The notes below the pieces were generated by a model. It saw nothing but the letters and a program-made list of their open reading frames with translations. It made no database searches and had not been told where the DNA came from. From Patescibacteria group bacterium (lineage in GTDB: Bacteria; Patescibacteriota; Gracilibacteria; UBA1369): DNA of 50,188 nt. Position numbers and translations under genes: made by a program. The DNA is taken from contig CAUJCM010000006.1 in the NCBI GenBank assembly GCA_963169655.1, positions 1-50,188 on the forward strand, read 5' to 3'. Of the stretch, positions 6,014 through 47,830 are shown piece by piece (positions within the stretch are counted from its first letter, which is position 1; each line of letters opens with the position of its first letter).

Positions 6014-6940
6014 CTATTTAAAAAGTTTGCAGACAGGTTTTTTACCTTGCTTTACATAAGCTCGAATTAAGCCTTCGGTTGTAAGACCTTCTCCAATATT
6101 TCCTTTTCTATCAATCATTATAAATCCTCCGTATCCATTAACTCTTTCTTTAAAATATTGTGTAGCTTTTTTACTAGCTTTCTTTGCTTTATATCCTTTT
6201 AGTTCTACTAAATCAGCTATTCTCCTTGATAGAGCAGCTTTAATAAAATCTTCACCTCGTCCAGTACAGGAAACCCCAGCACTTTTATTATCTGCAAAAT
6301 TTCCACAACCAATTAAAGCACTATCACCAATCCTCCCAATCATTTTATTTGACATTCCACCTGTTGAAGTAGCAGCAGCTAGATCTCCATAAATATCGTA
6401 AGCAACAGCTCCAACAGTTCCTAATTTTGTATTTTTTTTATTGTCATCATGATCTAAAAGCACAATTCCCTCTTTTTTTACTTTTTTAAGTTGAGCAACT
6501 CTATGTGGCAAAATAAAATAAGAAGCTGGTTTTCTTTCTATTTTCTCTTTTCTAATAAATTTTTCAGCTCCTTCTCCAATCAAAAAAACATGACTAGTCT
6601 TTTCCATTATTCTTCTTGCAACTGTAATTGGATTTTTTGCACTTTTAACACCAGCCACAGCACCAGTATTCATAGTTTTTCCGCACATAATGCTTGCATC
6701 CATCTCCACTTCACCTTCCTCATTTAAAACTGAACCTTTTCCAGCATTAAAAATTGGGTCATCTTCCAATAACTTCACACATTTTTCTACCACATCTAAA
6801 GCCTTTTCTCCTTTTTGTAAAAATCTTTCTCCTCTTTTAATTACTTTTTCTAAACTCTTTAAAAAAGCTTTCTGCTCCTTCTCAGAAAACTGAGATAATG
6901 CACCACAACCACCATGAATTATTAATGCATATTTTTTCAT
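6014..6940 (-). CDS. Isoaspartyl peptidase/L-asparaginase (Ntn hydrolase, family T2)
   Basis: The enzyme hydrolyses isoaspartyl-peptide or beta-aspartyl amide bonds; family members also act as L-asparaginase. Visible marks are the N-terminal IIHGGCGAL, the NAGKGSVL and EMDASIMCG region, then LGTVGAVAYD with the nucleophile Thr175, and STGGMSNKMIGRIGDSALIGCG and TGRGED for substrate binding. The 308 residues match the family (about 300-320). By family rule the precursor cleaves itself between Gly174 and Thr175 into alpha and beta subunits. It is the last gene of a four-gene minus-strand operon, 7 bases after the amidotransferase. That suggests it acts on an amide or isopeptide made by the upstream ligases (inference). 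No signal peptide seen, so cytoplasmic. Confidence 0.88.
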   Translation of the reverse strand: MKKYALIIHGGCGALSQFSEKEQKAFLKSLEKVIKRGERFLQKGEKALDVVEKCVKLLEDDPIFNAGKGSVLNEEGEVEMDASIMCGKTMNTGAVAGVKSAKNPITVARRIMEKTSHVFLIGEGAEKFIRKEKIERKPASYFILPHRVAQLKKVKKEGIVLLDHDDNKKNTKLGTVGAVAYDIYGDLAAATSTGGMSNKMIGRIGDSALIGCGNFADNKSAGVSCTGRGEDFIKAALSRRIADLVELKGYKAKKASKKATQYFKERVNGYGGFIMIDRKGNIGEGLTTEGLIRAYVKQGKKPVCKLFK

Positions 6941-6947
6941 ACTTAAT

Positions 6948-7661
6948 TTATATACTTTCCAAAAAGTTTTGTAAAATTTGATGTGCTTGATTTCCCAAAT
7001 AAATTTCAGACATTAATTTTTCAAAATGCTCTTCATCGCGTAAAAACCCACTTTCTAAATATTTTTCTTTCCTCTCTCGTAAAAGTTTTTCAGCTACGCT
7101 TTGCGGAATATCCGAATGAAATTGAGTAGCCAAAACATTTTTATATTGAAAAGCTTGTATCGGTGTATTTTCATTAAAAGCGAGTAGAGTAGCACCATCT
7201 GGGAGGCTTTCTATATAGTCATTATGGGTAGCAAAAACATATTTCTGATTATTGTATTCAGCAATTAAAGGATTTTGAAGTCCTTGATCAGTTAAATGAA
7301 TTTTGACAGGACCAAATTCTGTACCTTTTGGATTTCTGCTTATTTTTGAGCCCAAATGATATGCTAAAAATTGAGCCCCAAAGCAAGTAGCTAATATTGG
7401 AGTCTCTTTTTGTAAAAAATAATCAAAAGTCTGATGTAATTTATTTTTCCAATCAAAATCATCATAAACGGATCTCATAGAACCAGAAATAAGTACTGAA
7501 TCAAATTTATTAAGTGAGTTTTGATTTATATCTTCAGTTGCTGGATGAAAAATCTCAAAATTAAAATCTTGATACTCTTCACCTAAAATTTCTTGAATAT
7601 GCTTTTCTTGTCTAGTAGTTCTATCATCAGTAATTACATCGATTATTAAAATATTTTTCAT
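6948..7661 (-). CDS. Class I glutamine amidotransferase domain protein
   Basis: A stand-alone triad-type glutaminase domain of 237 residues, resembling GuaA-like amidotransferases. The nucleophile is Cys93 in ATCFGAQFLA; the catalytic His182 lies in ATQFHSDI. The usual Glu after the His (HPE) is Asp184 here, which may be a conservative change or may reflect altered activity. Such domains release ammonia from glutamine or cleave gamma-glutamyl bonds. Its start overlaps the stop of the upstream ligase by four bases (ATGA), so the two are probably translationally coupled. No synthetase domain is attached; the partner is likely one of the two adjacent ligases. The substrate cannot be read from the sequence. 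Confidence 0.8.
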   Translation of the reverse strand: MKNILIIDVITDDRTTRQEKHIQEILGEEYQDFNFEIFHPATEDINQNSLNKFDSVLISGSMRSVYDDFDWKNKLHQTFDYFLQKETPILATCFGAQFLAYHLGSKISRNPKGTEFGPVKIHLTDQGLQNPLIAEYNNQKYVFATHNDYIESLPDGATLLAFNENTPIQAFQYKNVLATQFHSDIPQSVAEKLLRERKEKYLESGFLRDEEHFEKLMSEIYLGNQAHQILQNFLESI

Positions 7662-8554
7662 ATATTTAATTGTTTTAATAATTGATTATTTGACTCAATA
7701 ATAGCATATATTTCTTTTTCTGTATCAACTGCATCAAAAACCCGACTTTCACAAATCCAAATATCATTATTTCTCTTAATTTTTACAGTCAAAGCATGTT
7801 CATTTTTACATTGAGCATCCTCAAAATTATCTACATCTGAATGAGCTTTCATCCAATTTTTCATTTCTTCAATATTTTTAAATTCACTAGGTAAAATTGC
7901 TTCTAAAGGATTTTTTATACCTCTTTTTAAAAATAAATCTCTTTTTACTTCTTGAAGTAACCTCATCGCTTTTTCAATTCTACTTTCACCTTCAAAGTCT
8001 CTTATTTTACCATTAAATTTATTTAGTTGATCAAAATTTCTTGAGTATAAATTATGAATTTGAAAAGCTAATTCAAGTTTTTCATCTAAATTATCAGTAT
8101 TTTGAAAAGGACGAGAGTCATTGATTTGTAATGAAGCAGTTACAGTATCTTTTAAGAGTTTACGACCTTTTTCAGTATTTCCCCATTTTTGAATTAATTC
8201 TTGAGAACGAGAATTAGGATCTGAAGTTGCAGGCACAAAGTCAAAATCCTTTTCTAAAACTGGTTGGAAAACTAATTCACAACCTTTTTCTTTTAAAATT
8301 TTATTAATCTCCTCTCGAATATTTAAAATTTGTGTGACAGCTTCCCCGTCTTTTTCAAAAACATCAGATTTTACTTCAAGCATCACTGAAGCTTGTTCAA
8401 AAGATAAATAAGGATATAAATTAGGTATTTTTTCCTCAACTTGTTTTAAGGTCCATTCACTTGCTGGCAAGCCATCAATTATTTCTTTTCCATAACCATT
8501 TTCTTTAATAAACCCCTCTATTTCTAGTCCAATTCCAAAATTTTCTTTTTTCAT
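7658..8554 (-). CDS. GCS2-type carboxylate-amine ligase-like protein, copy B
   Basis: A 298-residue protein with the marks of the glutamine-synthetase-fold ligases (GCS2/YbdK and the bacterial amidoligases). These are FGIGLEIEGFI at the start, ASVMLEVKSDV near residue 57 (compare ESMLELATDV in YbdK), TASLQINDSRPF in the middle and WICESRVFDA near the end (compare VEVRVMDTP). Such enzymes join a carboxylate to an amine using ATP. The protein is about 65% identical by eye to its upstream neighbour, so the pair is a tandem duplication. It lies 3 bases after copy A and overlaps the amidotransferase by 4 bases. Family assignment is by motif only; the substrate is unknown. Confidence 0.6.
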   Translation of the reverse strand: MKKENFGIGLEIEGFIKENGYGKEIIDGLPASEWTLKQVEEKIPNLYPYLSFEQASVMLEVKSDVFEKDGEAVTQILNIREEINKILKEKGCELVFQPVLEKDFDFVPATSDPNSRSQELIQKWGNTEKGRKLLKDTVTASLQINDSRPFQNTDNLDEKLELAFQIHNLYSRNFDQLNKFNGKIRDFEGESRIEKAMRLLQEVKRDLFLKRGIKNPLEAILPSEFKNIEEMKNWMKAHSDVDNFEDAQCKNEHALTVKIKRNNDIWICESRVFDAVDTEKEIYAIIESNNQLLKQLNI

Positions 8555-8557
8555 AAA

Positions 8558-9448
8558 TTAAATTTTACTTAATAAATCATTATTTTTTTTAATAATTTCT
8601 TCAATTTCACTTTCTGTATTAACTGCATCAAAAAGCCTACTTTCACAAATCCAAATTGCTTGATCTCTTTTAATTTTTACAGTTAAAGCATGTTCATTTT
8701 TACAATTTGTATCTTCAAAATTATCTACATCTGAATGAGCTTTCATCCAGTTTTTCATTTCTTCAATATCTGTAAATTCTCCTGGAAGTAAAGCTTTGAG
8801 TGGATCATTAATTCCATATTTAGCAAAAACTTCTTTTTTAACTTCTACCAATAAATTTGTAATTTTTTCAATTCTAGTTTTACCATCAAAGTCTTTTATT
8901 TTCCCATTAAATTTATTTAACTCTTCAAAATATTTTGAGTATAAATTATGAATTTTAAATGCTAGTTCAAGTTTTTTATCTAAACTATTAGCATTTTGGA
9001 AAGGTCGAGAGTCATTGATTTGTAAAGATGCTATTACAGTATCTTTTAATAACTTTTTACCTTTCTCAGTATTTCCCCATTCTTCAATTAATTGATAAAC
9101 ACGAGAGTCTTTATTTGAAGTAGCCGGAATAAAGTCAAAATCTCTTTCTAAAACTGGCTGAAACATTAATTCACAACCCTTTCTATTTAGAATTTTATTA
9201 ATATCATTTCTAATCTCTAAGATTTGAGCGATAGCTTCTCTTTCATTTTCAAAAACATCTGATTTCACTTCCAGCATTACTGACGCTTGTTCAAAAGAAA
9301 TATATTGCTCTAGATTTAACTTCTCATTAAGAATTTTTCTTAAAATCCATTCACTTGAAGGTATATCTTCAATTAATTCTTTAGCTGAACCTTCTTTCAT
9401 TATAAATCCTTCCATTTCAATCCCCATTCCATATTTTTCTGTATTCAT
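8558..9448 (-). CDS. GCS2-type carboxylate-amine ligase-like protein, copy A
   Basis: First structural gene of the four-gene operon, 296 residues, paralogous to the next gene over its whole length. It keeps the same key segments: YGMGIEMEGFI, ASVMLEVKSDV, IASLQINDSRPF, NEHALTVKIKR and WICESRLFDA. Glu residues in the first two segments are likely metal or ATP ligands, as in GCS2 and glutamine synthetase (inference). Two diverged copies could form a heteromer or have different substrates. The start is ATG without a Shine-Dalgarno sequence, only 12 bases after the U-tract of a terminator-like hairpin (9460-9497), so every transcript starting upstream must pass that hairpin. Confidence 0.6.
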   Translation of the reverse strand: MNTEKYGMGIEMEGFIMKEGSAKELIEDIPSSEWILRKILNEKLNLEQYISFEQASVMLEVKSDVFENEREAIAQILEIRNDINKILNRKGCELMFQPVLERDFDFIPATSNKDSRVYQLIEEWGNTEKGKKLLKDTVIASLQINDSRPFQNANSLDKKLELAFKIHNLYSKYFEELNKFNGKIKDFDGKTRIEKITNLLVEVKKEVFAKYGINDPLKALLPGEFTDIEEMKNWMKAHSDVDNFEDTNCKNEHALTVKIKRDQAIWICESRLFDAVNTESEIEEIIKKNNDLLSKI

Positions 9449-9459
9449 AAATTTCTTTT

Positions 9460-9497
9460 AAAAAATAAAATGACCTCAATCCGTTTGGGTTGAGGTC
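9460..9497 (-). terminator. Intrinsic terminator or attenuator before the ligase operon
   Basis: On the minus strand an 11-pair stem (GACCTCAACCC with GGATTGAGGTC, one G-U pair) with a 4-base loop is followed by ATTTTATTTTTT. It ends 12 bases before the start codon at 9448. It can end transcripts of the ComEC-type gene, but it also lies in the leader of the ligase operon. GGTTGAG of an upstream segment (plus-strand 9523-9529) can pair with CTCAACC of the stem (9488-9494) and would then prevent it forming. Confidence 0.75.
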
Positions 9498-9519
9498 TTA
9501 AATTACATAAACTCAAGAA

Positions 9520-9588
9520 TTACTCAACCATCTGCTTAAAAAAGTAGAAGTAAAATTGAGCAATTTTTTGAATATTTGAATTTTGCAT
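9520..9588 (-). CDS. Putative aromatic leader peptide of an attenuator
   Basis: A 22-codon open frame (ATG at 9588, TAA at 9520-9522) contains the run QFYFYFF at residues 11-17, that is six consecutive Phe/Tyr codons. Its last two sense codons and stop overlap the segment that can pair with the terminator stem. This is the classical layout of pheA, pheST or trp leader peptides. A ribosome stalled on the aromatic codons would leave that segment free to form an antiterminator; a ribosome reaching the stop would cover it and let the terminator form. No Shine-Dalgarno sequence is seen. Chance aromatic codons are possible in AT-rich DNA, so this is a structural prediction. Confidence 0.45.
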   Translation of the reverse strand: MQNSNIQKIAQFYFYFFKQMVE

Positions 9589-9637: not shown

Positions 9638-10492
9638 TTATCTTGATGGTTTAAAAGCAATTTCATCTTTACTACTTAATTGCACTTCAATATTTCCTTG
9701 TAAATCAGTTCTAAATACCTTTTGAGAAATAGATTGTAAATGTTTCAAAGTTTCAGGATTTGGGTGATTAAATTTATTATTTACTCCGCAAGAAATTATC
9801 ACCCAATCAGGTCGAATTTTTTCTAAAATAAAAAGATTATTACTCGTTTTAGAACCATGATGACCAGCTTTTAAAATATCACTATTTAAGTGTAATTTTT
9901 GACTAATCAATAATTCTTCTTTTTCTTTTTCCAAGTCTCCACTAAAGAAAGCTTTAAAATCATTAAAAATTAACCTAAAAGCAATAGAACTATTATTTAC
10001 ATTAGCAAAATATTTCCCATTAATATTTTCATTTGGATATAAAATATCAATTGCTACTTTACCAAACTTATAATCTTTTTGCCCATCGACATAAATTAAA
10101 TTAACATTTTTATCTAGTGCTAATTCTATTAATTGGTCATATCCCAAATAATTATACTTAACACCTGTTAACATTAGATTTTTAACTTCATATCTTTTTA
10201 AAACTTCAATCAGTCCATTAAGATGATCAGCGTGAGGATGACTCATAATCACTAAATCAATTTTTTTATTGTAAAAAGGGATTTTCTGGCTTAAAAAATT
10301 AATAATTTTATTATCTGGACCGCCATCATTTAAAATAAATTCACCAGTTGGCAATTGCATTAGTATACCGTCTCCTTGACCTACATCCACGAAATAAAGA
10401 TGCAATTTCCCATCAGGTAAAAAGCTAATTCCCCAAAGGCTTAAGATTATTAGAAATATTAGAAGTAATAAAAAATAATATCTTTTTTTCAT
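9638..10492 (-). CDS. ComEC/Rec2-type metallo-beta-lactamase-fold hydrolase
   Basis: A membrane anchor or signal segment (residues about 4-24, FLLLLIFLIILSLWGISF) precedes a metallo-beta-lactamase domain. This starts LHLYFVDVGQGDGILMQLP, the family signature of the ComEC C-terminal domain, and has SHPHADH at residues 84-90 with the metal-binding His85, His87, Asp89 and His90. Later metal ligands lie in FFSGDLEKE and AGHHGSKTS. It is the stand-alone form without the competence channel domain. In full-length ComEC this domain is thought to degrade one strand during DNA uptake; a secreted or membrane-bound nuclease is plausible. The ATG at 10492 is preferred to TTG at 10495. It is followed by the hairpin at 9460-9497. 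Confidence 0.8.
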   Translation of the reverse strand: MKKRYYFLLLLIFLIILSLWGISFLPDGKLHLYFVDVGQGDGILMQLPTGEFILNDGGPDNKIINFLSQKIPFYNKKIDLVIMSHPHADHLNGLIEVLKRYEVKNLMLTGVKYNYLGYDQLIELALDKNVNLIYVDGQKDYKFGKVAIDILYPNENINGKYFANVNNSSIAFRLIFNDFKAFFSGDLEKEKEELLISQKLHLNSDILKAGHHGSKTSNNLFILEKIRPDWVIISCGVNNKFNHPNPETLKHLQSISQKVFRTDLQGNIEVQLSSKDEIAFKPSR

Positions 10493-10577
10493 CAAAGTTT
10501 TTTATATAAAGATATTTTAGTCTGCTATTTTTAAATCATTGTGAAAAATAGATTAAATTATTTTTATAATGCCTATT

Positions 10578-10850: not shown

Positions 10851-12470
10851 CTATTTTTTATTTTTTTTATTCTTTCTAGTAAAGAATGCTCCAAAACCTC
10901 CAGATCCAAGTAATAATAATCCTAGCTCTGGACCTGTTTTTGGTAAAATAAATGTAGTTTCAATACCTTCACTTTCATTACCTAAATTATCTCTTGTAGT
11001 TAATTTGAAGTAATAAATCATATCTTCTTTTAAGTCATTGAAATTATAATTATCAGTTGATGTATTTAGCTCAATACCAGGCCCATAGGTAACTCCTTTA
11101 TCTGTAGACATATAAAGAACAAAGTTTGCTGCATTAGCAACTTGGTCTGTATTAATTTTCCATGAAAGGTTTACTAACATATCACTTACCATTTTTGCTA
11201 ATAAATCTGACGCTGCATTTGTTGGTTTTACATTTCCTTCTACGATAGGCAAGTCTGGTGTGCTTGGTGCTACACCATCAAATGAAGTAGCACTATTTTG
11301 AACATCCATTAAATTTCCATCTAAATCTTTAACTTTAATAGCAATAATATTAAATTTTGCATTTGATAAATCTTCAGTGGTTAAAGTAGCAACAGCACCA
11401 CTTGGGGCAACTACTACTTTAGTTACATTGATAATTTTACTATTATCACTGGCATCAGTGATAATAAAGTTTTCATTGGCATTTGGAAGCAAGACAACTG
11501 GTTTAGAGAAAGTCACCTCAACAGTGTTCCCATCTAAGGCTTTTACATTAACAAATGATGGTCCTTCTTTTTTATTATCAGAATCAGCTGCTGGTTTTAA
11601 GTCTTGTGCTTTGGCATCTGTTCCAGTAAATACTGCAGTATCGCTAGTCCCACTAATAATTGGATTTCCAGCTAAATCTTGAATTTGAATTCCTGCAGTT
11701 AACATATATTTAGTTCCAGCTTTTTGGTTTGCAGTAGTAAGAATAACTGTTTTACCACCGGAATCACTTGAATCTAATTCAACTTTACTAATAGCTAATG
11801 CTATTCCTAAAAAGTCTTCTTTAATTGAAAATGTACTTTCTGCATTGCTTGCAGGTAATTTTACAGCTTCAGAAAATACTACTTTTACTTTATTTGTATT
11901 CTCAGCATCCACACTTACAACTTTTGGTGCAACATTATCATTTAAATCAACTGCATTTGTTGAACCTGATGATTTTGGGGTAGCACTTGTTTCATTACTA
12001 TAAAATTCACTTTCATTACCAGCAGCATCTACTGCGGTAATAGCAAAATAATAAGTTTTATCATTTTCAAGGTTTGTAATATCAAAAGTAGTTACATTGC
12101 CAATATCAACTGGTCCCATTGTATAACTTGCTGTATCAGTACTTACTGATTGATTTCCATAAAATATTTTATATCCAACCACACCTACATTATCTGTTGC
12201 AGCATCCCATGTTAAAGTAACCTTTTTATCACCAGCAGTTGCTTTTACATTTTCTACATCTGATGGGTAAGTAGTATCACTAGCAGCTGCTAACATATTA
12301 CTTTCTGGTAAATTTAAACCGAGTGATGAAAGAAATCCACTATTTGAATTTTCAGTGCCACCAGGAGTCAAAAAACCCGATTGAGCAGATGTAATACTAT
12401 TTGAAACTAATAGGCCAATAGTAAGAATACTAATTAAAGTTATTTTTTTTGTTTTCATTTTTGATAACAT
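10851..12470 (-). CDS. Cell-surface protein with FN3 and SbsA-like Ig domains and an LPXTG-like anchor
   Basis: A 539-residue exported protein. There is a signal peptide (residues about 8-30, cleavage after ITSA). Fibronectin type III domain 1 spans about 50-165 (VTLTWDAATDNVGVVGYKIFY, YYFAITAVDAAGNESE). Two Ig-like SbsA/Big_5-type domains follow at about 180-285 and 300-395 (VKVVFSEAV, VEVTFSKPV). A second FN3-like domain spans about 425-505. The C-terminus is LPKTGPE, a hydrophobic stretch and a basic tail, as in sortase-anchored proteins. No sortase gene is in the window. Probably cell-wall or membrane attached, with a role in adhesion or surface coat (inference). A second ATG four codons in is an equally good start. 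Confidence 0.8.
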   Translation of the reverse strand: MLSKMKTKKITLISILTIGLLVSNSITSAQSGFLTPGGTENSNSGFLSSLGLNLPESNMLAAASDTTYPSDVENVKATAGDKKVTLTWDAATDNVGVVGYKIFYGNQSVSTDTASYTMGPVDIGNVTTFDITNLENDKTYYFAITAVDAAGNESEFYSNETSATPKSSGSTNAVDLNDNVAPKVVSVDAENTNKVKVVFSEAVKLPASNAESTFSIKEDFLGIALAISKVELDSSDSGGKTVILTTANQKAGTKYMLTAGIQIQDLAGNPIISGTSDTAVFTGTDAKAQDLKPAADSDNKKEGPSFVNVKALDGNTVEVTFSKPVVLLPNANENFIITDASDNSKIINVTKVVVAPSGAVATLTTEDLSNAKFNIIAIKVKDLDGNLMDVQNSATSFDGVAPSTPDLPIVEGNVKPTNAASDLLAKMVSDMLVNLSWKINTDQVANAANFVLYMSTDKGVTYGPGIELNTSTDNYNFNDLKEDMIYYFKLTTRDNLGNESEGIETTFILPKTGPELGLLLLGSGGFGAFFTRKNKKNKK

Positions 12471-12686: not shown

Positions 12687-15344
12687 ATGAAAATCAAAAT
12701 CAGCCCTAATATATTTAAGTATTACCCAAATATTCAGTATACCGTAATTGTTATTCACAATATCGAGAATCAAAGAAAAATCTCTAACTTATCTCAATTA
12801 CTTCGTGGTACTGCTGTTGTCACCAAAAATGATTATAAAAAAGTAAATAAAAAAGATTTAATTAGTCAGATTTCTGATATTAGACTTGAAGATGGATCTA
12901 CATTTTTGGAAAGTTATTTATTTGACTCGAGAATTAAAAAAATAATGAATGGTAAAGATCTTGATGCTAATAATAATTTATTAAATTTAATTTCTTTACT
13001 ATCTCTTAAATTTACATTGCCTATTTTTGGAACTGATCTAGATCAGGAGTTTAAAGATATTGTTATTGATTTTTATTTACCTAAAAAAGGCAAAAAATCT
13101 CCAGATTTAAATTTTTTATCAAGCACTAAAAGTATAGCAATTTGGTTTCCAAACTTATCCAATATTAACGAAGAACAAATTGATTTCTATATTAGTGAAA
13201 TTAATTTAATTTTATATAAGTATTTAAATACTCAAATAAGTGAAGTTTATCACTTAGACAATAATACTCCAGAAATTGATTTAAAATATCAGTCTGATAT
13301 GGAACAAGAATATTTAGAAGGACGAAGCGATCATATCATTGCTAATTTCTCTGAAGACTCAGCTCTCAATGAAAATAGCATAAATAATATTGAATCTAAT
13401 ATTCAAACTATAACTGATAACAATTTAACTACTTCTGTTCCAACACAAATTAATCAAGAAGATAAAGAAACTACCACAACTATTCATCCACAAGCAAAAA
13501 TGCCACTTGAATCTTTAAAACAAAGTTTAAATAATATTTTAAATAATATTTTTCCAAGTGTTTTAAGTTTAATTTCCACAGAAGAACTTCAAAATAATTT
13601 TATTAATATAGAAGCTCCAAAAGACTCTAGTCATGGCGATTTCTCAACTAATTTAGCGATGAAATTAGCCAAAAATTTAAGCCAAAATCCTGTTGAAATT
13701 GCCAATCAAATCAAAAATGAACTCTCAAAAGATGATAGATTAGTCACATTTATTGAGAAAATCGAAGTTATTCCACCTGGTTTTATTAACTTTTATTTAA
13801 ACACTAATTATTTTGTCCAAAATTTAAATCAAATCCTTGAATTAAAAGGTGATTATGGCCAGCAAAATATTGGCAATAATCAAAAAATAATGATTGAGTT
13901 TGGGTCATTAAATATTGCTAAACCTTTTGGAGCTCATCATTTTTTAACAACAATCATCGGTCAGACTTTAGTTAATTTACATAAAAAAATAGGTTTTGAT
14001 GTTTTATCAGCAGATCATCCTGGAGATTGGGGTACTCAATTTGGAAAAGCTATTTATGCTTATAAAAACTGGGGAAATCGAGAAGAGATTTTAAAAGATC
14101 CAATGAATGAGCTTTTAAAATTATATGTAAGATTTCATGAGGAGGCAGAAGCAAATCCTCAGCTTGAAGATTTAGCTAGAGAAGAATTTAAAAAATTAGA
14201 AGATGGTGATAGTGAAAACTTAGAATTATGGAAATGGATTGTTGAGATTTCTCTCAAGGATTTAGATGTGATTTATCAGACTTTAGGGGTTAAATTCGAT
14301 CGTAGGTATGGAGAGGCTAAATATAATCAAGCCTGTCAGTTATTACTTCAAAAAGGTAAAGATTTAGGAGTATTTATTCCTGGAGAAAATAATGCTTATA
14401 TTGTTGATTTAGAAGATCAAAAATTACCTCCAGCTTTAGTTCAAAAAGGTGATGGGACTTCACTTTATTTAACTCGTGATCTTGCTAGTATTGAAGACCG
14501 CTTAAAAACTGAAGAAAACCTCAAAAAACTGATTTATATTGTTGATAATGCTCAAACACTTCATTTTAAACAATTATTTGCTATAGCAAATAAGCTTCAT
14601 CAAGCTGATTCTAACTACCCAATTACTGAATTTAAACATATTCCATATGGGAGAATGAGTTTTGCAGACGAAAAGATGAGTACCAGAAAAGGAAATGTAA
14701 TTTTAGGTATTGATTTAATTAAAGAAGCTCAAAATCGTTCTGCTCAAATAATTAATCAAAAATTAAGTAAAAGTGAAGAAAAATTTACTGATAATGAACT
14801 AAAACAATTAATAAATGGTATTGCTTTAGGTGCAATTAAATATTCAATTTTGGCTCAAGCTCCAGAATCAGACTTTATTTTTGATTGGGATAAAGTACTT
14901 TCTTTTGAAGGAAATAGTGCACCTTACTTGCAATATACTTATGCAAGGTCTCAAAGCATACTTAGAAAGTTTAATCAAAAAAACACAGAAAATAACACAT
15001 CTAACAGCCAAATCGACTTATTTTCTTATCAAGAAGAAAAAGAACAAATTACAGATGAAAATAGCAAAAGTTTTGACTTAGACATCGAGAAAGAATTACT
15101 TAGACAATTAGCTTTATATCCAGAGAAATTAACTAGTTCAGCTTTACAATATAAACCTAATATTTTAACTACTTACCTTTATCAATTAGCTCAAACTTTT
15201 AATTCTTTTTATGGTTCTACTCCAATTTTAAAAACTCAAAATGAAGAATTATTAAATTCCCGCATTAAATTAGTAGAGGCAACAGCTGAAATTATTAAAA
15301 ACGGTTTAAATTTAATTGGTATACAAGTTTTTGAAAGAATGTAG
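12687..15344 (+). CDS. argS: Arginyl-tRNA synthetase with N-terminal B3/4-like domain
   Basis: Residues from about 275 to 885 are class I ArgRS: N-terminal Add-1-like domain, catalytic core with DHPGDWGTQFG, KMSTRKG (663-669), and a DALR anticodon-binding domain (APYLQYTYAR, ALYPEKLTSSA, NSFYGSTPI). Residues 1 to about 200 are an extra domain resembling the B3/4 editing domain of PheRS beta: FKYYPNIQYTVIVIHNIEN at the start, then the KDLDANNNLLNLISLLSLKF region and LPIFGTDLD. A low-complexity linker joins the two. ArgRS is normally 550-600 residues. The HIGH motif region reads NIAKPFGAHHFL (G415-A-H-H418), so the first His is replaced by Gly. It charges tRNA-Arg in the cytoplasm; the extra domain could bind or edit (inference). 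A terminator follows at 15366. Confidence 0.85.
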   Translation: MKIKISPNIFKYYPNIQYTVIVIHNIENQRKISNLSQLLRGTAVVTKNDYKKVNKKDLISQISDIRLEDGSTFLESYLFDSRIKKIMNGKDLDANNNLLNLISLLSLKFTLPIFGTDLDQEFKDIVIDFYLPKKGKKSPDLNFLSSTKSIAIWFPNLSNINEEQIDFYISEINLILYKYLNTQISEVYHLDNNTPEIDLKYQSDMEQEYLEGRSDHIIANFSEDSALNENSINNIESNIQTITDNNLTTSVPTQINQEDKETTTTIHPQAKMPLESLKQSLNNILNNIFPSVLSLISTEELQNNFINIEAPKDSSHGDFSTNLAMKLAKNLSQNPVEIANQIKNELSKDDRLVTFIEKIEVIPPGFINFYLNTNYFVQNLNQILELKGDYGQQNIGNNQKIMIEFGSLNIAKPFGAHHFLTTIIGQTLVNLHKKIGFDVLSADHPGDWGTQFGKAIYAYKNWGNREEILKDPMNELLKLYVRFHEEAEANPQLEDLAREEFKKLEDGDSENLELWKWIVEISLKDLDVIYQTLGVKFDRRYGEAKYNQACQLLLQKGKDLGVFIPGENNAYIVDLEDQKLPPALVQKGDGTSLYLTRDLASIEDRLKTEENLKKLIYIVDNAQTLHFKQLFAIANKLHQADSNYPITEFKHIPYGRMSFADEKMSTRKGNVILGIDLIKEAQNRSAQIINQKLSKSEEKFTDNELKQLINGIALGAIKYSILAQAPESDFIFDWDKVLSFEGNSAPYLQYTYARSQSILRKFNQKNTENNTSNSQIDLFSYQEEKEQITDENSKSFDLDIEKELLRQLALYPEKLTSSALQYKPNILTTYLYQLAQTFNSFYGSTPILKTQNEELLNSRIKLVEATAEIIKNGLNLIGIQVFERM

Positions 15345-41716: not shown

Positions 41717-44700
41717 TTAATTCAAGACCTCAAAGGTTCTTCCAATACTTCTTCCAAACACCTCTGGGAAATAAATTTCTTGTACTAAAGTAGGTAAATC
41801 TGCAAACTTACCAACTGAAGTAGCACGAAGATAATAATCAAGTTCATATACACCTTTTGGAAGGAAGTCTGCAAAGAACATCACTTTATCATCCTTAATC
41901 TCATTATGGTTGAAATACCAATTATAACAATCATCAAATTCACAAGCATCTTCATCTAAAAGTCCTTGTTCAGTTGTTTTTAAATTAAAGTCAACACCCT
42001 CAAGACCAGCTGGCAAATAGTCTTCAATCATCACAAAATATCTATCTTCAGGAACTATTAATGTAATTTTACTATGTATATTTTGACCAACCTTTAATGA
42101 GTTTAAAGGCTTAGTCATTTGGGTATCGTTTATATCAAAATACTCTTGAATAACATCCATTCCTTTATTTTGAGCTTTTTGTTGATCTAATGGTAAATAA
42201 TATTCCATTAAAATATTGGCATACAATGAACCTTGACCAGTTTTTTGAATAGCCAATTCATTCTCCATATTATTTGAAAGTAATTTATTTAATGGTATTA
42301 ATTTTTCAATTGTTTGTCCAAGATTTTCACTCTTAAAATTCTCATCAAATAATCCTTCTCCATTCAATATTACTTGTGCATTAAAGGCAGGATTTAATTC
42401 CTTATGATCTTTCATATATTCAAGTGTTGAAATAAGCATTATTGCATTTTCTTGTGTACTTTGACTAAACCCAGTCTGTCTTTCAATTAATAAGTGATTT
42501 AATAATTTTGGAATAATCACATTATCACTATCCAATCTATTAAATGCTCTCAAAGCAAGTGCTGTTGATTTTAAATTTGAATCAAAAATTCTATAATCAA
42601 GATTTTTTTCTTTTATATAAGCACTTCTATCAGTAATTATTAGTGAATTTTCAATATCTTTTAATAAATTATTAATTTTTTCTTTAGTTCCAGAATTCTT
42701 TTGTTTTTCATTAATCTTGTCAAAAGACATAGCTAAATATGCTTTAGAAGCTACACTCAAGTCTTTTCTAGCTTCATATAAATTATTATTTAAAGCCAAA
42801 TCACCTTGTCCAATTTCACTTAATACAAATAAAATATAAGCTTTAGTATTTATACTCAAATTTACATCATTTTCATCATTAACTCCTTTATTTACTATGT
42901 CTTGTAAATATTTAATTGCACTATTTTGAACTTTACTATCTACAACATAACCTAATTCAGTAAGTTTATTTAATCCTTCAACAACATAAGCAGTTAAATA
43001 TGCATTACTTCTTGAGTTGATCCAAAGGCCAAATCCACCATTAGCTTGTTGATTTTTATATAATTGTTGCAAATTTGTTTCAATTAATTTATCAGTATTA
43101 TTTACATTTAAAACCTCTTGCCCTACTAATTTTTTAACAGTAGCAATTGGATATATTCGGCTAATAATTTGTTCAGTACAATAGTAAGAATAATTGATTA
43201 AGTAGTTGATACTATCCTCTAAATTACCAATTAATGAACCTGTTAAAGAAAGTTTAATTCCCCCTTTATTTAGATTTAGATTTTCAGGAATCCAAATTTT
43301 TTCTATTTCTTTCTTGTCTTCAGTAATCATCTTATTAATAGCTACAATTTCAGGGAAACTAGATTCAGAAATTGGTAAAATTTGTTCAATTTCATCGCTG
43401 TATTTTCCATCACTAGATGCTACTTTAAAGACTATTTTTGCTTTTTCCTTTCCATTTACTTTAATCTTCCAACTTAATTTTTGATTTTGATTAGAACCCA
43501 AACTAATAGTCTTTTCTGCAAAATCAATTAAATCAATCCCTTCTACATTCAAATTTACAGTTAATTTTTGTTTTTCAGGTAAATAATTATGAACAATAGC
43601 TGAGATTTCCATTTCATCACCATTAACCATAAATCTTGGTAGAACAGGACGAATTAATAAATCTTTATTTACGACAAAACTATATTTATCACTTCCAACC
43701 AACCCTAAATTATTTTTTTGATCATTTGAAATACCAATTGCCAAAACTTGCCATGAAGTTAAATTATCAGGAAGCTCAAATTCTACAAATCCCTCTCCAT
43801 TTCCATCTGTAAATACTTCAGATCGATAAAAAGCAGTATCTTTAAAATCAGTTCTCTTTGAGGAATTTCCACCACTTCCACCTTTCATTCCAGAGTCGAT
43901 TTGCACATTAATACGAGCTAAAGCTTTAGTTAAAGTATCAGCAAAACTTACAGCCAATAATCTCTTTCGATAAAATACATTTAATAAATCAGCAGTAACG
44001 CTTTCAGTAAGCGATAAAACACTTTCATCAACTACAGAAACCGACAACTCAGAAGGAACTGCTTTCCCTGTATAATCAGTAGTTTTTAGATTTATTTTAA
44101 CAGTATCTCCAGGATTATATCTTTGTTTATCACTCTTTATTTGAATATTTAATTTTTTACTTGCAGTATTTACTTGTAAAACAGCATATCCAACTTTAAA
44201 TCCAGCAATATTTCCTTCTCCTTCTGCATTTAAATTTCCTTTAGAAAGTACAACTGAAATAAAGGTATTAGGGAGGAATTTATCGGTAATTGGTACTTCA
44301 ATTGTTTGTGAATTAGAAGTTATTTTTTCTATTCTTTGATCTAAAACATCATTTTTTTCATAGGTAATTAAAGCATACGCATCTTTATATGGTGATTTAA
44401 TTAGTATTTTTGCAGTATCCCCAATTTGATATTCCATTTTATCTGGAATTAATTCAATTTGATCATTATTTTCATTTCCCCAATTGATAAAGTCACCACT
44501 ACTTACATAAAATCTGGTTGTACTTCTAATTTCATTACCAGAATTATCTTTTGCTGAAGCAGTAACCACATAATCTCCACCTTTTTTAAAGTTAAAGCTA
44601 ACCTTACCTCGACCATCTCCATCTGACTTAATGTTTTTAGTTTCTATTAATTTATCATCATAAGTATTTTCATAGTAAAAATATCCATCTACACTCTTTC

Positions 44701-47700
44701 TTTTTACTGTATTCCAATTTCTCTCAAAAACACTTACTTTTATATTCTTATTTCCAACAATTTCTCCTTTAGTATTTACTGTTAATATTTCAAATTCAGA
44801 GTTTTCTCCAATATTTCCAACATAATCACTACTTCTAATTCCAATATAAAAATCACCTTTATGAACTGGGATATTTATTCTATTTGAAACACTTTGATTA
44901 TTTTGATCAAAAGCTGTGACTTCTAAAGTATAAATTTGACTATTCTTCTTTATGTTTAAGTTAAATGGAATATCAATAGTTGCTTGTCCATTTTCATCAG
45001 TTTTAACTTTTCCTTGGCTTACTAATTCAGATTCCATTGCACATCCCCAATAACAGAAATAACCTTCCTCAGAAAAACTAAACCAATCACCAGTAATTTT
45101 ATTAGCAATCTTTTCTGGTAAAATAAAATAATAGTCACTTCCTTTTAAAGTCCATTTTAATTCAGTATTTGGCATTGGAGCTCCAAAGAAGTATCCGGCA
45201 TTTACAGTGATTTTTGCTGTTTGTCCATTAATATACTCATCTTGATTTGATGTAATATCTAGTTTGTATTCAGGTTTTCTATATTCATAAACTTTGAAAT
45301 CATAATAAAAATGATTTTGCCAACTTACAGAATTTTTATCATCAATTTCAGCAACAATAGAATATTCTCCAGTTGTGATATTTTGGCCAAGAGTAAATGA
45401 ATCTTCAAAAGTTCCATTCCCACTTAATTTTAATTCTTTTTCATAAATATTTTTTCCTTCGGCATCCATTATGGTAACATTTACCTTATTAATACTTGGT
45501 AAATTTAATTTATAATCTTTTTCTTGTCTGACTATCCCTTTAAAATTTATTTCTTGTCCTGGACGATAAATTGGTCGGTCTGAGTAAAGATAAACATAAT
45601 AATCTGGTGCAATAGTTTGATAATCTAAATTAAAATTCCAAGGGGCAACTCCTTCACTCCAAGTAGTATGGACAAAAGTTTGATTATTTGATTTTTGCCC
45701 TAAAATCATAAAGTCTTCATAATAAGAATCTTTATTTTTGGGGATTGATATTTTAGCTACTCCATTTACATCAGTCACTCCTGAATATGTCTTATTATCT
45801 TTGCTTGCACTAATATTCATATTATTTATTGGCTCACCCGTTTTTAAATCAGTAGCCCAAACAAGTAATTGTCCTGAACTTTGTTTCACAGCTAAAGCAC
45901 TTTCAGTCACGATAAACATAGTCTTTTCAACTTTTTGAATGTCAGTACATCCAGGATTATCTGTTTGCCACGCATAAGTACATAAAGTACTTGTTACATT
46001 TGGAGCTGAAACCTCAAGATAATAAAATCCTGGGCTTAATTTTTCTCCTCTTAATTCATCTAAATTCATTAAAGTATAGTCTTTTTGATTTTGGTCTAAA
46101 TTAAGATTTAAAGTTCCATACCAAGTATTTTGATCTAAATTTATTTGTTTTCCTTTAAAATCAACAAAAGCATCACTATAAGCATTTCTAAATTCATCAT
46201 AAGAAATTTGTTTTAATGCTAAATCAATTTGATTCACATTAACTGTTTCAACATAAAACTTACTTCCTTGATAAGCATCAACAACACTAACATCCACTTC
46301 TTTTTCCAAACTGAAGCCAGGTTTATAGTCCTTAGTTTTAAAGTTTTTTTCAATTTTATCCTCTAAAATTTCACCATAAATATCTTCACCGCCTGCTAAA
46401 ACTACAACAGTATAATCTGTTTGAGGTTGGAAATTATAACTTACATTTAAAGTATATTTATCATCATTATTATTCAAAATTGGTTCAATAACTTTACCAT
46501 TTTCATCTTTTAATTGAGGAGAAATTACTACCTTTTTATTAAAAGAGCTTAAATTTATTGGATTATTAAATTTAAAGTAAACATTTGCTAATTTATTATC
46601 TGTAGGTAAAGGATCAGTATTACTTTCAGCCAAATTAAATTGAGAAGCTACAGTAAAACTATATTTTTTAGCTTCTTCTGTGGCTAAACTACCTTCTTGA
46701 CCACGAAGTCCAGCATTAACAGTTAAAGTATATTGATTCTCTTTTTTTAAAGGATTTGATGTTTCAATAATTAAACTCTTAATTAAATCTTTTTCATCAG
46801 GTAAAGTCTGTCCAAATTCATCATCAATTTCAATCTCTTCGCCTGTATCCATTTCTAGTAATTTATTGTAAGTTTTTTCTTCATTTAACCAATCATTAAT
46901 AGAAAAATACCTTACTTGGAAATTTTGTTTTTCTTCCTTCCCCTCTTCTTCATAAACAAGACTAATCATCTCTTTTGCGCTTTTAATATCAACGGGGATA
47001 TTAAAGGTTAATTTAAGTCGGCTTTGATTAGAAAAATTTACAGAATTTAAACTATCAGTAGCAGTTAAGCTCACAGCATAAGGTTTAACAGTTTCAAAAT
47101 GACTGACATAATCATCTTCAATATAACCACCATCCAAGACCTTCATACCTTTTGGAACAGTCACTTTATAGCTTGTAGATAATTTTAATTTATCTGGAGT
47201 AAATTGAAGTCCAGAAGTTCCAAGCCATCTCCATTTTCCACTGACTTTAGGTTCAATTTTGATATCAGGTATTTTCACTTCATTATCTGCGATAGTGCTC
47301 ATTGTCCCAACCGGTCTGTCAAATAAAATATTGATTTTACTATCAGCCAATACATTTGTAGCTTGATCATTAGGAGTAATTAAAGCTACTTTTGGAGCTT
47401 CAATAATACGATAAATTTCACTATATTCTGAATTTAAAGGTTTTTGAAGAAAACTTAATGCACTTTTGCCAATTGTAATAGTATATTCATCACCAATATT
47501 TAATTTATCTTTTGGAGTAAAAATTAATGTATTTCCTCTCCAACTCATTCCACCTTCAATACTTGGAGAAATTTGAAAAACCTTTTCTACGCTAGAATGG
47601 TTCATCATTTGATTGAAAGTAATCTGAAAAGGAGCATTTACTGACATATCTCTTGAAGCACCTTTAAACAAATATCCCTGTACAGTAGGGGTTGGTATAA

Positions 47701-47830
47701 GTGGATAATAAACAACACCTCCAATCACAATTATTAAAATCAGCCCAATTACAAATCCACTCAAGCGAAGTAACTTCTTTGAATAACCAGAAAATTTCTT
47801 ATCTGAAATTCCTTTTCCTTTATTAGCCAT
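41717..47830 (-). CDS. Bacterial alpha-2-macroglobulin family protein
   Basis: A 2037-residue outward-facing protein, the largest in the window. An N-terminal membrane anchor (about 20-42, LSGFVIGLILIIVIGGVVYY) is followed by Ig-like/SbsA-like domains (to about 500), an MG2 domain (YLYSDRPIYRPGQEINFKG, near 745-765), further macroglobulin domains and the A2M domain (FVEFELPDNLTSWQVLAIG, near 1350). The thioester region has YYCTEQ, with Cys1551 and Gln1554 forming the thioester; CTEQ stands for the usual CGEQ or CLEQ. The helical thioester domain (QANGGFGLWINSRSNAYLTAYVVEGL) and a receptor-like end domain follow. Such proteins trap attacking proteases covalently. The usual partner gene for penicillin-binding protein 1C is not adjacent. 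Confidence 0.93.
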   Translation of the reverse strand: MANKGKGISDKKFSGYSKKLLRLSGFVIGLILIIVIGGVVYYPLIPTPTVQGYLFKGASRDMSVNAPFQITFNQMMNHSSVEKVFQISPSIEGGMSWRGNTLIFTPKDKLNIGDEYTITIGKSALSFLQKPLNSEYSEIYRIIEAPKVALITPNDQATNVLADSKINILFDRPVGTMSTIADNEVKIPDIKIEPKVSGKWRWLGTSGLQFTPDKLKLSTSYKVTVPKGMKVLDGGYIEDDYVSHFETVKPYAVSLTATDSLNSVNFSNQSRLKLTFNIPVDIKSAKEMISLVYEEEGKEEKQNFQVRYFSINDWLNEEKTYNKLLEMDTGEEIEIDDEFGQTLPDEKDLIKSLIIETSNPLKKENQYTLTVNAGLRGQEGSLATEEAKKYSFTVASQFNLAESNTDPLPTDNKLANVYFKFNNPINLSSFNKKVVISPQLKDENGKVIEPILNNNDDKYTLNVSYNFQPQTDYTVVVLAGGEDIYGEILEDKIEKNFKTKDYKPGFSLEKEVDVSVVDAYQGSKFYVETVNVNQIDLALKQISYDEFRNAYSDAFVDFKGKQINLDQNTWYGTLNLNLDQNQKDYTLMNLDELRGEKLSPGFYYLEVSAPNVTSTLCTYAWQTDNPGCTDIQKVEKTMFIVTESALAVKQSSGQLLVWATDLKTGEPINNMNISASKDNKTYSGVTDVNGVAKISIPKNKDSYYEDFMILGQKSNNQTFVHTTWSEGVAPWNFNLDYQTIAPDYYVYLYSDRPIYRPGQEINFKGIVRQEKDYKLNLPSINKVNVTIMDAEGKNIYEKELKLSGNGTFEDSFTLGQNITTGEYSIVAEIDDKNSVSWQNHFYYDFKVYEYRKPEYKLDITSNQDEYINGQTAKITVNAGYFFGAPMPNTELKWTLKGSDYYFILPEKIANKITGDWFSFSEEGYFCYWGCAMESELVSQGKVKTDENGQATIDIPFNLNIKKNSQIYTLEVTAFDQNNQSVSNRINIPVHKGDFYIGIRSSDYVGNIGENSEFEILTVNTKGEIVGNKNIKVSVFERNWNTVKRKSVDGYFYYENTYDDKLIETKNIKSDGDGRGKVSFNFKKGGDYVVTASAKDNSGNEIRSTTRFYVSSGDFINWGNENNDQIELIPDKMEYQIGDTAKILIKSPYKDAYALITYEKNDVLDQRIEKITSNSQTIEVPITDKFLPNTFISVVLSKGNLNAEGEGNIAGFKVGYAVLQVNTASKKLNIQIKSDKQRYNPGDTVKINLKTTDYTGKAVPSELSVSVVDESVLSLTESVTADLLNVFYRKRLLAVSFADTLTKALARINVQIDSGMKGGSGGNSSKRTDFKDTAFYRSEVFTDGNGEGFVEFELPDNLTSWQVLAIGISNDQKNNLGLVGSDKYSFVVNKDLLIRPVLPRFMVNGDEMEISAIVHNYLPEKQKLTVNLNVEGIDLIDFAEKTISLGSNQNQKLSWKIKVNGKEKAKIVFKVASSDGKYSDEIEQILPISESSFPEIVAINKMITEDKKEIEKIWIPENLNLNKGGIKLSLTGSLIGNLEDSINYLINYSYYCTEQIISRIYPIATVKKLVGQEVLNVNNTDKLIETNLQQLYKNQQANGGFGLWINSRSNAYLTAYVVEGLNKLTELGYVVDSKVQNSAIKYLQDIVNKGVNDENDVNLSINTKAYILFVLSEIGQGDLALNNNLYEARKDLSVASKAYLAMSFDKINEKQKNSGTKEKINNLLKDIENSLIITDRSAYIKEKNLDYRIFDSNLKSTALALRAFNRLDSDNVIIPKLLNHLLIERQTGFSQSTQENAIMLISTLEYMKDHKELNPAFNAQVILNGEGLFDENFKSENLGQTIEKLIPLNKLLSNNMENELAIQKTGQGSLYANILMEYYLPLDQQKAQNKGMDVIQEYFDINDTQMTKPLNSLKVGQNIHSKITLIVPEDRYFVMIEDYLPAGLEGVDFNLKTTEQGLLDEDACEFDDCYNWYFNHNEIKDDKVMFFADFLPKGVYELDYYLRATSVGKFADLPTLVQEIYFPEVFGRSIGRTFEVLN

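Follow-up and report, generated by a model that had tools for sequence, protein, structure and literature searches.

An operon of predicted amide ligases and amide hydrolases preceded by a putative aromatic amino-acid attenuator in a Patescibacteria group bacterium

In this tiny-genome bacterium, a four-gene operon that combines two predicted amide-bond-making enzymes with two predicted amide-cutting enzymes is preceded by an RNA element that appears to read whether the cell is running short of phenylalanine and tyrosine, which would tie a so far unexplained enzyme family to amino-acid supply. The window under study is a 50,188-nucleotide stretch of contig CAUJCM010000006.1 (assembly GCA_963169655.1). 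The operon had been noticed in a first-pass annotation made from sequence alone, and we confirmed that it is real, although the attenuator just upstream of it had been missed.

Results

The four ORFs lie on the minus strand, at 8558-9448, 7658-8554, 6948-7661 and 6014-6940, and are separated by gaps of 3, -4 and 7 nt. The first two genes encode tandem paralogues, which we refer to as ligase A (8558-9448, 296 aa) and ligase B (7658-8554, 298 aa). The two proteins are about 67% identical, with pN of 0.185 and pS of 0.422, so both copies look to be under purifying selection. Both fall below the Pfam gathering cut-off for GCS2 (PF04107; 16.4 and 17.5 bits, cut-off 21), although the orthologue in the related genome G010 reaches 23.9 bits, and both fall far below the curated cut-off of the YbdK family (TIGR02050; 15.6 and 18.9 bits, cut-off 176.4). 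No Pfam match to Amidoligase_2 (PF12224) was seen at E<=1 in six family members. A search of PDB sequences with the ligase profile returned only chance hits, a DUF4518 match (20 bits, cut-off 27) was rejected as sub-threshold, and hhalign gave a weak N-terminal match to Escherichia coli YbdK alone (probability 51%) and none to GshA. The placement of the family therefore rests on the fold. No relative of the ligase was found in viral contigs, phages or plasmids.

The AlphaFold2 model of ligase B is confident (pLDDT 88.6, pTM 0.88), and structural comparison of this model matched the glutamine-synthetase (GS) fold over the whole chain, with VIA Z scores of 18.3 to the YbdK-type structure 1tt4 (235 residues, rmsd 3.0), 18.2 to plant glutamate-cysteine ligase and 17.1 to E. 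coli GshA. The paralogues carry the GhExE motif of the superfamily, as defined in PMC2588565, at residues 9-13 (GLEIE/GIEME; GIEME in ligase A), together with a C-terminal E-x-R. In contrast to the GCS2/YbdK carboxylate-amine ligases (solved structures 1r8g and 1tt4), identity to YbdK is only 12%, and the strand expected to carry the HVHV-type His motif of GCS2 reads Q-I/V-N.

The third gene (6948-7661, 237 aa) encodes a class I GATase-like protein (PF00117, 54.9 bits, cut-off 22.8), with Cys93, His182 and Asp184 at the catalytic positions; the third of these reads Asp in the window-type GATases, where the two distant ones have Glu. Its nearest solved relatives are GMP synthase, TM1158 and gamma-glutamyl peptidase 1. 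The fourth gene (6014-6940) encodes an isoaspartyl peptidase/L-asparaginase of the Ntn hydrolase type (Asparaginase_2, PF01112, 348.5 bits, cut-off 27). The protein matches E. coli EcAIII/IaaA (2zak, 1jn9) over its full length (1.2e-74), and the predicted nucleophile Thr175 aligns to the start of the EcAIII beta chain, at the same autoprocessing site; what differs is its location in a ligase operon.

Upstream of ligase A, at 9461-9588 on the minus strand, lies a trp/phe-type transcription attenuator identified from sequence. A putative leader ORF of 22 codons (9520-9588, MQNSNIQKIAQFYFYFFKQMVE) contains the Phe/Tyr codon run FYFYFF, with six aromatic residues in nine codons. Region 1 (9555-9560, CUCAAU) can pair with region 2 when the leader is not translated, as seen in the RNA fold of the window leader only. 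Region 2 (9523-9529, GGUUGAG), at the very end of the leader ORF, forms the antiterminator half and can make seven contiguous pairs with the terminator 5′ arm. The predicted intrinsic-terminator hairpin (regions 3:4; 9472-9497, GACCUCAACCCAAACGGAUUGAGGUC, -13.4 kcal/mol) is followed by an AUUUUAUUUUU tract to 9461 and lies about 23 nt before the first ligase start. A hairpin with a different stem sequence occupies the same position in G010. A generic terminator scan did not list the window hairpin, which was found by eye and then by a dedicated scan, and Rfam returned no regulatory RNA family at the operon.

All five attenuator-bearing loci of the ligase family, which comprise six genes in four genomes, have aromatic leaders and antiterminators of 7-13 pairs. 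The leader is Phe/Tyr in the window, Phe in G010, Phe and Tyr respectively in the C2 and C1 copies of the related genome G243, and Trp in the related genome G238. The same filter passed five of five ligase loci and none of about 1,050 other genes scanned, including the 755 others among the 756 genes scanned in this genome; among shuffled sequences, 0 of 1000 passed for the window leader and 0-3 of 1000 across the analysis. The seventh, more divergent family member, in genome G097, lies directly downstream of a TrpR-family repressor gene (PF01371, 70.7 bits) and precedes an AstE/AspA amidohydrolase-like gene.

The only other strong attenuator-like leader in this genome is Ile-rich (antiterminator score 20) and precedes a PGM1_C ATP-grasp ligase. 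Close orthologues of this ATP-grasp protein were absent from the 89 genomes of the order that were searched, and its best NCBIfam hit, far below the family cut-off (29 of 475 bits), was LdmS, reportedly an L-aspartate-L-methionine ligase of Staphylococcus (Pederick 2022, cited in PMC13338154). In the related genome G247, an Ile-rich leader and terminator precede a 470-aa ATP-grasp-like gene that is followed by an isoaspartyl peptidase.

Conservation of the gene neighbourhood, which the first-pass annotation had set as a test along with the fold, gave a mixed result. Adjacency of ligase and GATase recurs in two further genomes (G010, with the same murA neighbour, and G238), but the paralogous pair and the linked isoaspartyl peptidase were seen only in the window, and the peptidase family is found in 2 of 353 genomes of the class; in contig DBRL01000012.1, an N gap lies between the GATase gene and murA (L009 position 2718). 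The ligase copies in G243 and G097 have no GATase neighbour, whereas genomes G002 and G003 have the GATase without the ligase.

Chorismate synthase was not found in four of the five ligase genomes, the exception being G243, so auxotrophy is not universal. No PALP-family (tryptophan synthase beta) protein and no homologue of E. coli PheP were found in this genome, the latter in a search with a positive control, and among amino-acid transporters a search restricted to AA_permease_2 found none in any of the five.

Discussion

Our data are best explained by an operon of two GS-fold amide ligases and two amide hydrolases that is switched on by shortage of charged tRNA-Phe/tRNA-Tyr. The leader ORF with its aromatic codons, the alternative pairings open to region 2 and the position of the terminator can be read directly from the sequence, whereas the start codon and translation of the leader, the response of expression to starvation and the whole of the enzyme chemistry, including ATP-dependent amide bond formation, are inferred. 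In the predicted mechanism, a shortage of Phe or Tyr would stall the ribosome in the leader, allowing region 2 to capture the terminator 5′ arm so that the ligase genes are transcribed; when both amino acids are plentiful, the ribosome would reach the leader stop and cover region 2, and transcription would end. Although the leaders come from only five loci, we are highly confident that the attenuator is real and aromatic-specific. The arrangement resembles the pheL/pheA, pheM/pheST and trpL attenuators of enterobacteria in its leader peptide rich in the sensed amino acid, its region 2 overlapping the leader end and its choice between terminator and antiterminator, but it controls amide ligases, in organisms mostly without chorismate synthase.

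The chemistry is less certain. In this view, each ligase would phosphorylate a side-chain carboxylate of Glu or Asp and join it to an aromatic amino acid, giving a gamma-glutamyl or beta-aspartyl isopeptide, and the isoaspartyl peptidase and the gamma-glutamyl-peptidase-like GATase would release the amino acid again. That the ligases act on aromatic amino acids or their conjugates is slightly more likely than not. The most likely purpose, ATP-driven trapping and controlled release of scarce aromatic amino acids in an auxotroph, is only weakly supported and remains doubtful, as a ligase that consumes Phe/Tyr under Phe/Tyr starvation is paradoxical unless its product is useful or reversible, and the isoaspartyl peptidase is tied to the ligases in one genome only. 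Taken as a whole, we regard this explanation as about as likely as not.

The interpretation in the first-pass annotation was partly supported. Its assignment of the pair to GS-fold ligases is right and survives its own refutation test of structural similarity, but its suggestion that the GATase supplies nitrogen is not needed in general, and its proposed targets (peptidoglycan peptides, a storage compound or a protein tag) have no support, the regulatory evidence pointing to aromatic amino acids instead. For peptidoglycan, murA (window and G010) and murD (G243 C2) are convergent neighbours only, and peptidoglycan has no aromatic residue. An amidation module, in which the GATase releases ammonia from glutamine for the ligase to amidate a carboxylate and the peptidase acts in recycling, is nevertheless possible, though unlikely: ligase and GATase are adjacent in three genomes, the GATase keeps its Cys and His, and GS-fold enzymes can use ammonia (PMC2588565). 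However, three ligase copies lack a GATase neighbour, two genomes have the GATase alone, the third catalytic position reads Asp, and the aromatic attenuators are left unexplained.

Alternatively, the GS-fold proteins could work as amide hydrolases, as Dop does in the Pup system (a GS-fold depupylase; PMC7947786), with the whole operon salvaging aromatic amino acids from scavenged gamma-glutamyl and beta-aspartyl conjugates. Two of the four gene products are hydrolase-like, and release of Phe/Tyr under starvation would make direct sense of the attenuator, but the motif set is that of ligases, and we consider this reading improbable. A starvation-induced dipeptide natural product (an antibiotic, a signal or a tabtoxin/bacilysin-like molecule) acting on neighbours or the host cell is slightly less probable still. 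Stand-alone L-amino-acid ligases make dipeptides, one of them in tabtoxin biosynthesis (PMC13338154), a PGM1_C ATP-grasp lies under an Ile-rich attenuator in the same genome, and presence is patchy; however, the operon contains no exporter, tailoring enzyme or resistance gene, and leader specificity for one or two amino acids per locus fits metabolism better than a weapon. Chance is very unlikely. The window is 30% GC, TTT and TAT codons are common and the sample is small, but the filter results argue against it, G010 keeps leader and hairpin in place with a compensated stem, the Trp-rich G238 leader is not favoured by AT bias, and complementarity between region 2 and the terminator arm reaches 13 pairs.

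A broader and unlikely possibility, although compatible with the evidence, is a so far undescribed amino-acid economy in CPR bacteria, in which amino-acid-specific amide ligases of two unrelated folds (GS-fold for Phe/Tyr/Trp, ATP-grasp for Ile) are each switched on by a leader-peptide attenuator or repressor for their own amino acid, and work with isopeptide hydrolases in a conjugate-and-release cycle that stands in for biosynthesis or active uptake. LdmS offers a parallel, as an amino-acid ligase linked to the metabolism of one amino acid, but its ATP-grasp fold is unrelated to that of the window ligases.

GCS2-sized GS-fold ligases adjacent to amidotransferase-like genes were noticed in 2008, with small-peptide synthesis suggested but no substrate assigned (PMC2588565); the passage on them mentions no isoaspartyl peptidase, paralogue pair or attenuator, and Amidoligase_2, reportedly the Pfam name of that family, gave no Pfam match here. 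In the present family, the genomes themselves point to a substrate class, as the attenuators name Phe, Tyr or Trp and two copies in one genome name different amino acids, which makes the substrate question directly testable. Our work also documents what looks like classical leader-peptide attenuation in Peregrinibacteria-type CPR genomes, on which we found no paper in the literature searched, and suggests a link between amide ligation and amino-acid supply in organisms that mostly lack the usual biosynthetic routes.

Predicted fold and identity of the operon proteins

The first-pass annotation described a compact operon of two ligase-like proteins, a class I amidotransferase and an isoaspartyl peptidase, and this observation is real. 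The four genes lie on the minus strand, ligase A at 8558-9448, ligase B at 7658-8554, the GATase at 6948-7661 and the isoaspartyl peptidase at 6014-6940, with gaps of 3, -4 and 7 nt. The window is contig 6 of a 1.02 Mb, 98.7% complete genome, whose relatives are named Candidatus Peregrinibacteria and Candidatus Abawacabacteria in the public records.

The peptidase is a full-length Asparaginase_2 protein (348.5 bits), closest to E. coli EcAIII, with the nucleophile Thr175 at the autoprocessing site. The GATase belongs to PF00117 (54.9 bits) and is nearest to GMP-synthase glutaminase domains, TM1158 and plant gamma-glutamyl peptidase 1; it keeps Cys93 and His182, but the third catalytic position reads Asp184. 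Although the paired proteins are only weak GCS2 matches by sequence, an AlphaFold2 model of ligase B (pLDDT 88.6, pTM 0.88) was placed by Foldseek and VIA-align with YbdK-type and glutamate-cysteine ligases, with Z scores of 18.3 to 1tt4, 18.2 to 2gwc and 17.1 to 1va6, compared with about 13 for glutamine synthetases. Seven family members share E11, E13, E53, E60, Q143, N145, R192, K250, H253, K258, K260, E269 and R271, including the GhExE motif of the superfamily (PMC2588565). Both paralogues keep all of these residues and differ with pN 0.185 and pS 0.422, so neither looks like a decayed copy. The interpretation in the first-pass annotation was supported in part: its reading of the pair as ligases is right, whilst the regulatory region described below had not been reported.

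Distribution of the ligase family

A single-sequence search of 353 genomes of the class found the ligase in four, and a profile search added a fifth, genome G097, in which the frame is open only if UGA is read as an amino acid (table 25, Gly). A degenerate-pattern scan of about 85 000 species genomes, which is a strict search, found only genomes of the same group. Ligase and GATase are adjacent in the window, in genome G010, which also shares the murA neighbour, and in genome G238. Genome G243 has two ligases without a GATase neighbour, and genomes G002 and G003 have the GATase alone. The isoaspartyl peptidase family is present in only 2 of the 353 genomes, and so the four-gene set is a single-genome fact; however, the G010 assembly has an N gap exactly where the peptidase would sit, between the GATase and murA, and its absence there is not proven. 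In a further genome, G341, a class I GATase gene directly precedes a glutamine-synthetase-family gene that scores below the GlnA cut-off (stretch L029, 4811-7193), a possible PuuD/PuuA-like pair.

Elsewhere in the window, a stand-alone MBL-fold protein at 9638-10495 resembles the C-terminal part of ComEC (TIGR00361, below cut-off). A secreted fibronectin-type protein at 10851-12470 ends in LPKTG plus a hydrophobic stretch and a basic tail, and looks like it carries a sortase-type anchor. An 885-aa ORF at 12687-15344 looks like an arginyl-tRNA synthetase with a long N-terminal extension, possibly a B3/B4-like domain, and an unannotated 2037-aa ORF occupies 41717-47830.

Putative aromatic attenuators upstream of the ligase genes

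Between 9588 and 9461 on the minus strand lies a leader ORF, MQNSNIQKIAQFYFYFFKQMVE, whose last codons contain GGUUGAG. This motif can pair with CUCAACC in the 5′ arm of a terminator hairpin at 9497-9472, which is followed by a U-rich tract and then by the ligase A start at 9448. G010 has the same layout, with the leader MNKHGSQNFGFFFFAYFKHRVEA, a 13-pair antiterminator, and a terminator (AAGCCCCAGCCCGGACGGGUUGGGGCUU) at the same place with compensated stem changes. The leaders of the two G243 loci are MKQTFFFNTEFFFFAAKRG (C2) and MNLFSAAYQYYSYLM (C1), and that of G238 is MRAQDFFIIHWWCKLHIWKGHFCW. The antiterminators have 7, 13, 7, 12 and 9 pairs in the window, G010, G243 C2, G243 C1 and G238, respectively. 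In each, region 2 (the antiterminator half) sits in or across the last third of the leader ORF, the arrangement expected if a ribosome finishing the leader favours termination and a stalled one favours read-through.

To assess how unusual this arrangement is, we scanned the upstream regions of 756 genes of this genome and about 300 genes of G243, G238, G010 and G097 for a leader ORF plus terminator, at least 4 F/Y/W in 9 codons, and an antiterminator score of at least 15. The five ligase loci pass this filter and no other gene does, whilst dinucleotide-preserving shuffles of the five regions pass 0, 3, 1, 0 and 1 times in 1000. Because the filter was set after the five cases had been seen, the contrast with the other genes is the fair reading rather than a formal p-value; genes were called mechanically. 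The most divergent member, in G097 (21% identity), has no leader, but a TrpR-family repressor gene (PF01371, 70.7 bits) lies directly upstream of the ligase gene and an AstE/AspA-type amidohydrolase gene follows it, the three lying in a row (stretch L053, 1137-3330) in a genome that appears to read UGA as Gly. Every locus of the family found here therefore carries an aromatic-amino-acid control element of some kind, as judged from sequence.

Ile-rich leaders upstream of ATP-grasp-like genes

The only other attenuator-like leader in this genome with an antiterminator score above 15 has an Ile-rich peptide, MINRLNNLIINLNIIILSRIER. Together with an attenuator-like terminator/antiterminator, it precedes an ATP-grasp ligase with a PGM1_C domain on contig 5 of the same genome (stretch L047, 15656-16915), next to a class I/II aminotransferase and a TrmB-type regulator; the best NCBIfam hit of this ligase, well below cut-off, is the L-aspartate-L-methionine ligase LdmS. 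In genome G247, the only other genome of the class with an isoaspartyl peptidase, that gene follows a 470-aa ORF with weak similarity to this ATP-grasp (E 4e-5 in a pairwise comparison, no Pfam match; stretch L049, 3009-5487). An Ile-rich leader, MIVFRIYKCCKLLSIIRRII, and a terminator precede that ORF, with a 7-pair antiterminator (AGCCAGG with CCUGGCU) that is readable by eye. The theme of an amide ligase under the control of one amino acid, sometimes with an isopeptide hydrolase, therefore appears with a second fold.

Proposed function and relation to known systems

The operon structure, the fold, the conserved motifs and the anatomy of the attenuator are shown by our analysis, whereas expression of the operon when tRNA-Phe or tRNA-Tyr is poorly charged is a prediction from that anatomy, and the action of the ligases on aromatic amino acids is an inference. 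The two tandem ligases with a mixed Phe/Tyr leader, beside single ligases with single-residue leaders elsewhere, fit one ligase per amino acid, but this is a pattern drawn from few cases. A weaker inference is that the purpose would be ATP-driven trapping of the amino acid as a gamma-glutamyl or beta-aspartyl conjugate, with later release by the peptidase and the GATase-like protein. The genomic setting is consistent with this view: there is no chorismate synthase in four of the five genomes, no PALP-family enzyme in this genome, and no AA_permease_2 in any of the five, the last result covering that transporter family alone. The main weakness is the paradox that a ligase would consume the scarce amino acid, and the alternative in which the operon salvages amino acids by hydrolysis avoids it.

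A 2008 study (PMC2588565) described a GCS2-sized ligase family next to a GATase-like thiol peptidase, and suggested small-peptide synthesis. The window pair resembles this in kind but gave no match to Amidoligase_2 in a search against Pfam profiles. Attenuators of this type are textbook for pheA, pheST and trp; their use in front of amide ligases, and in this bacterial group, was not found in the papers searched. Overall, the regulatory layer changes the question posed by the operon from what it modifies to what it does with aromatic amino acids.
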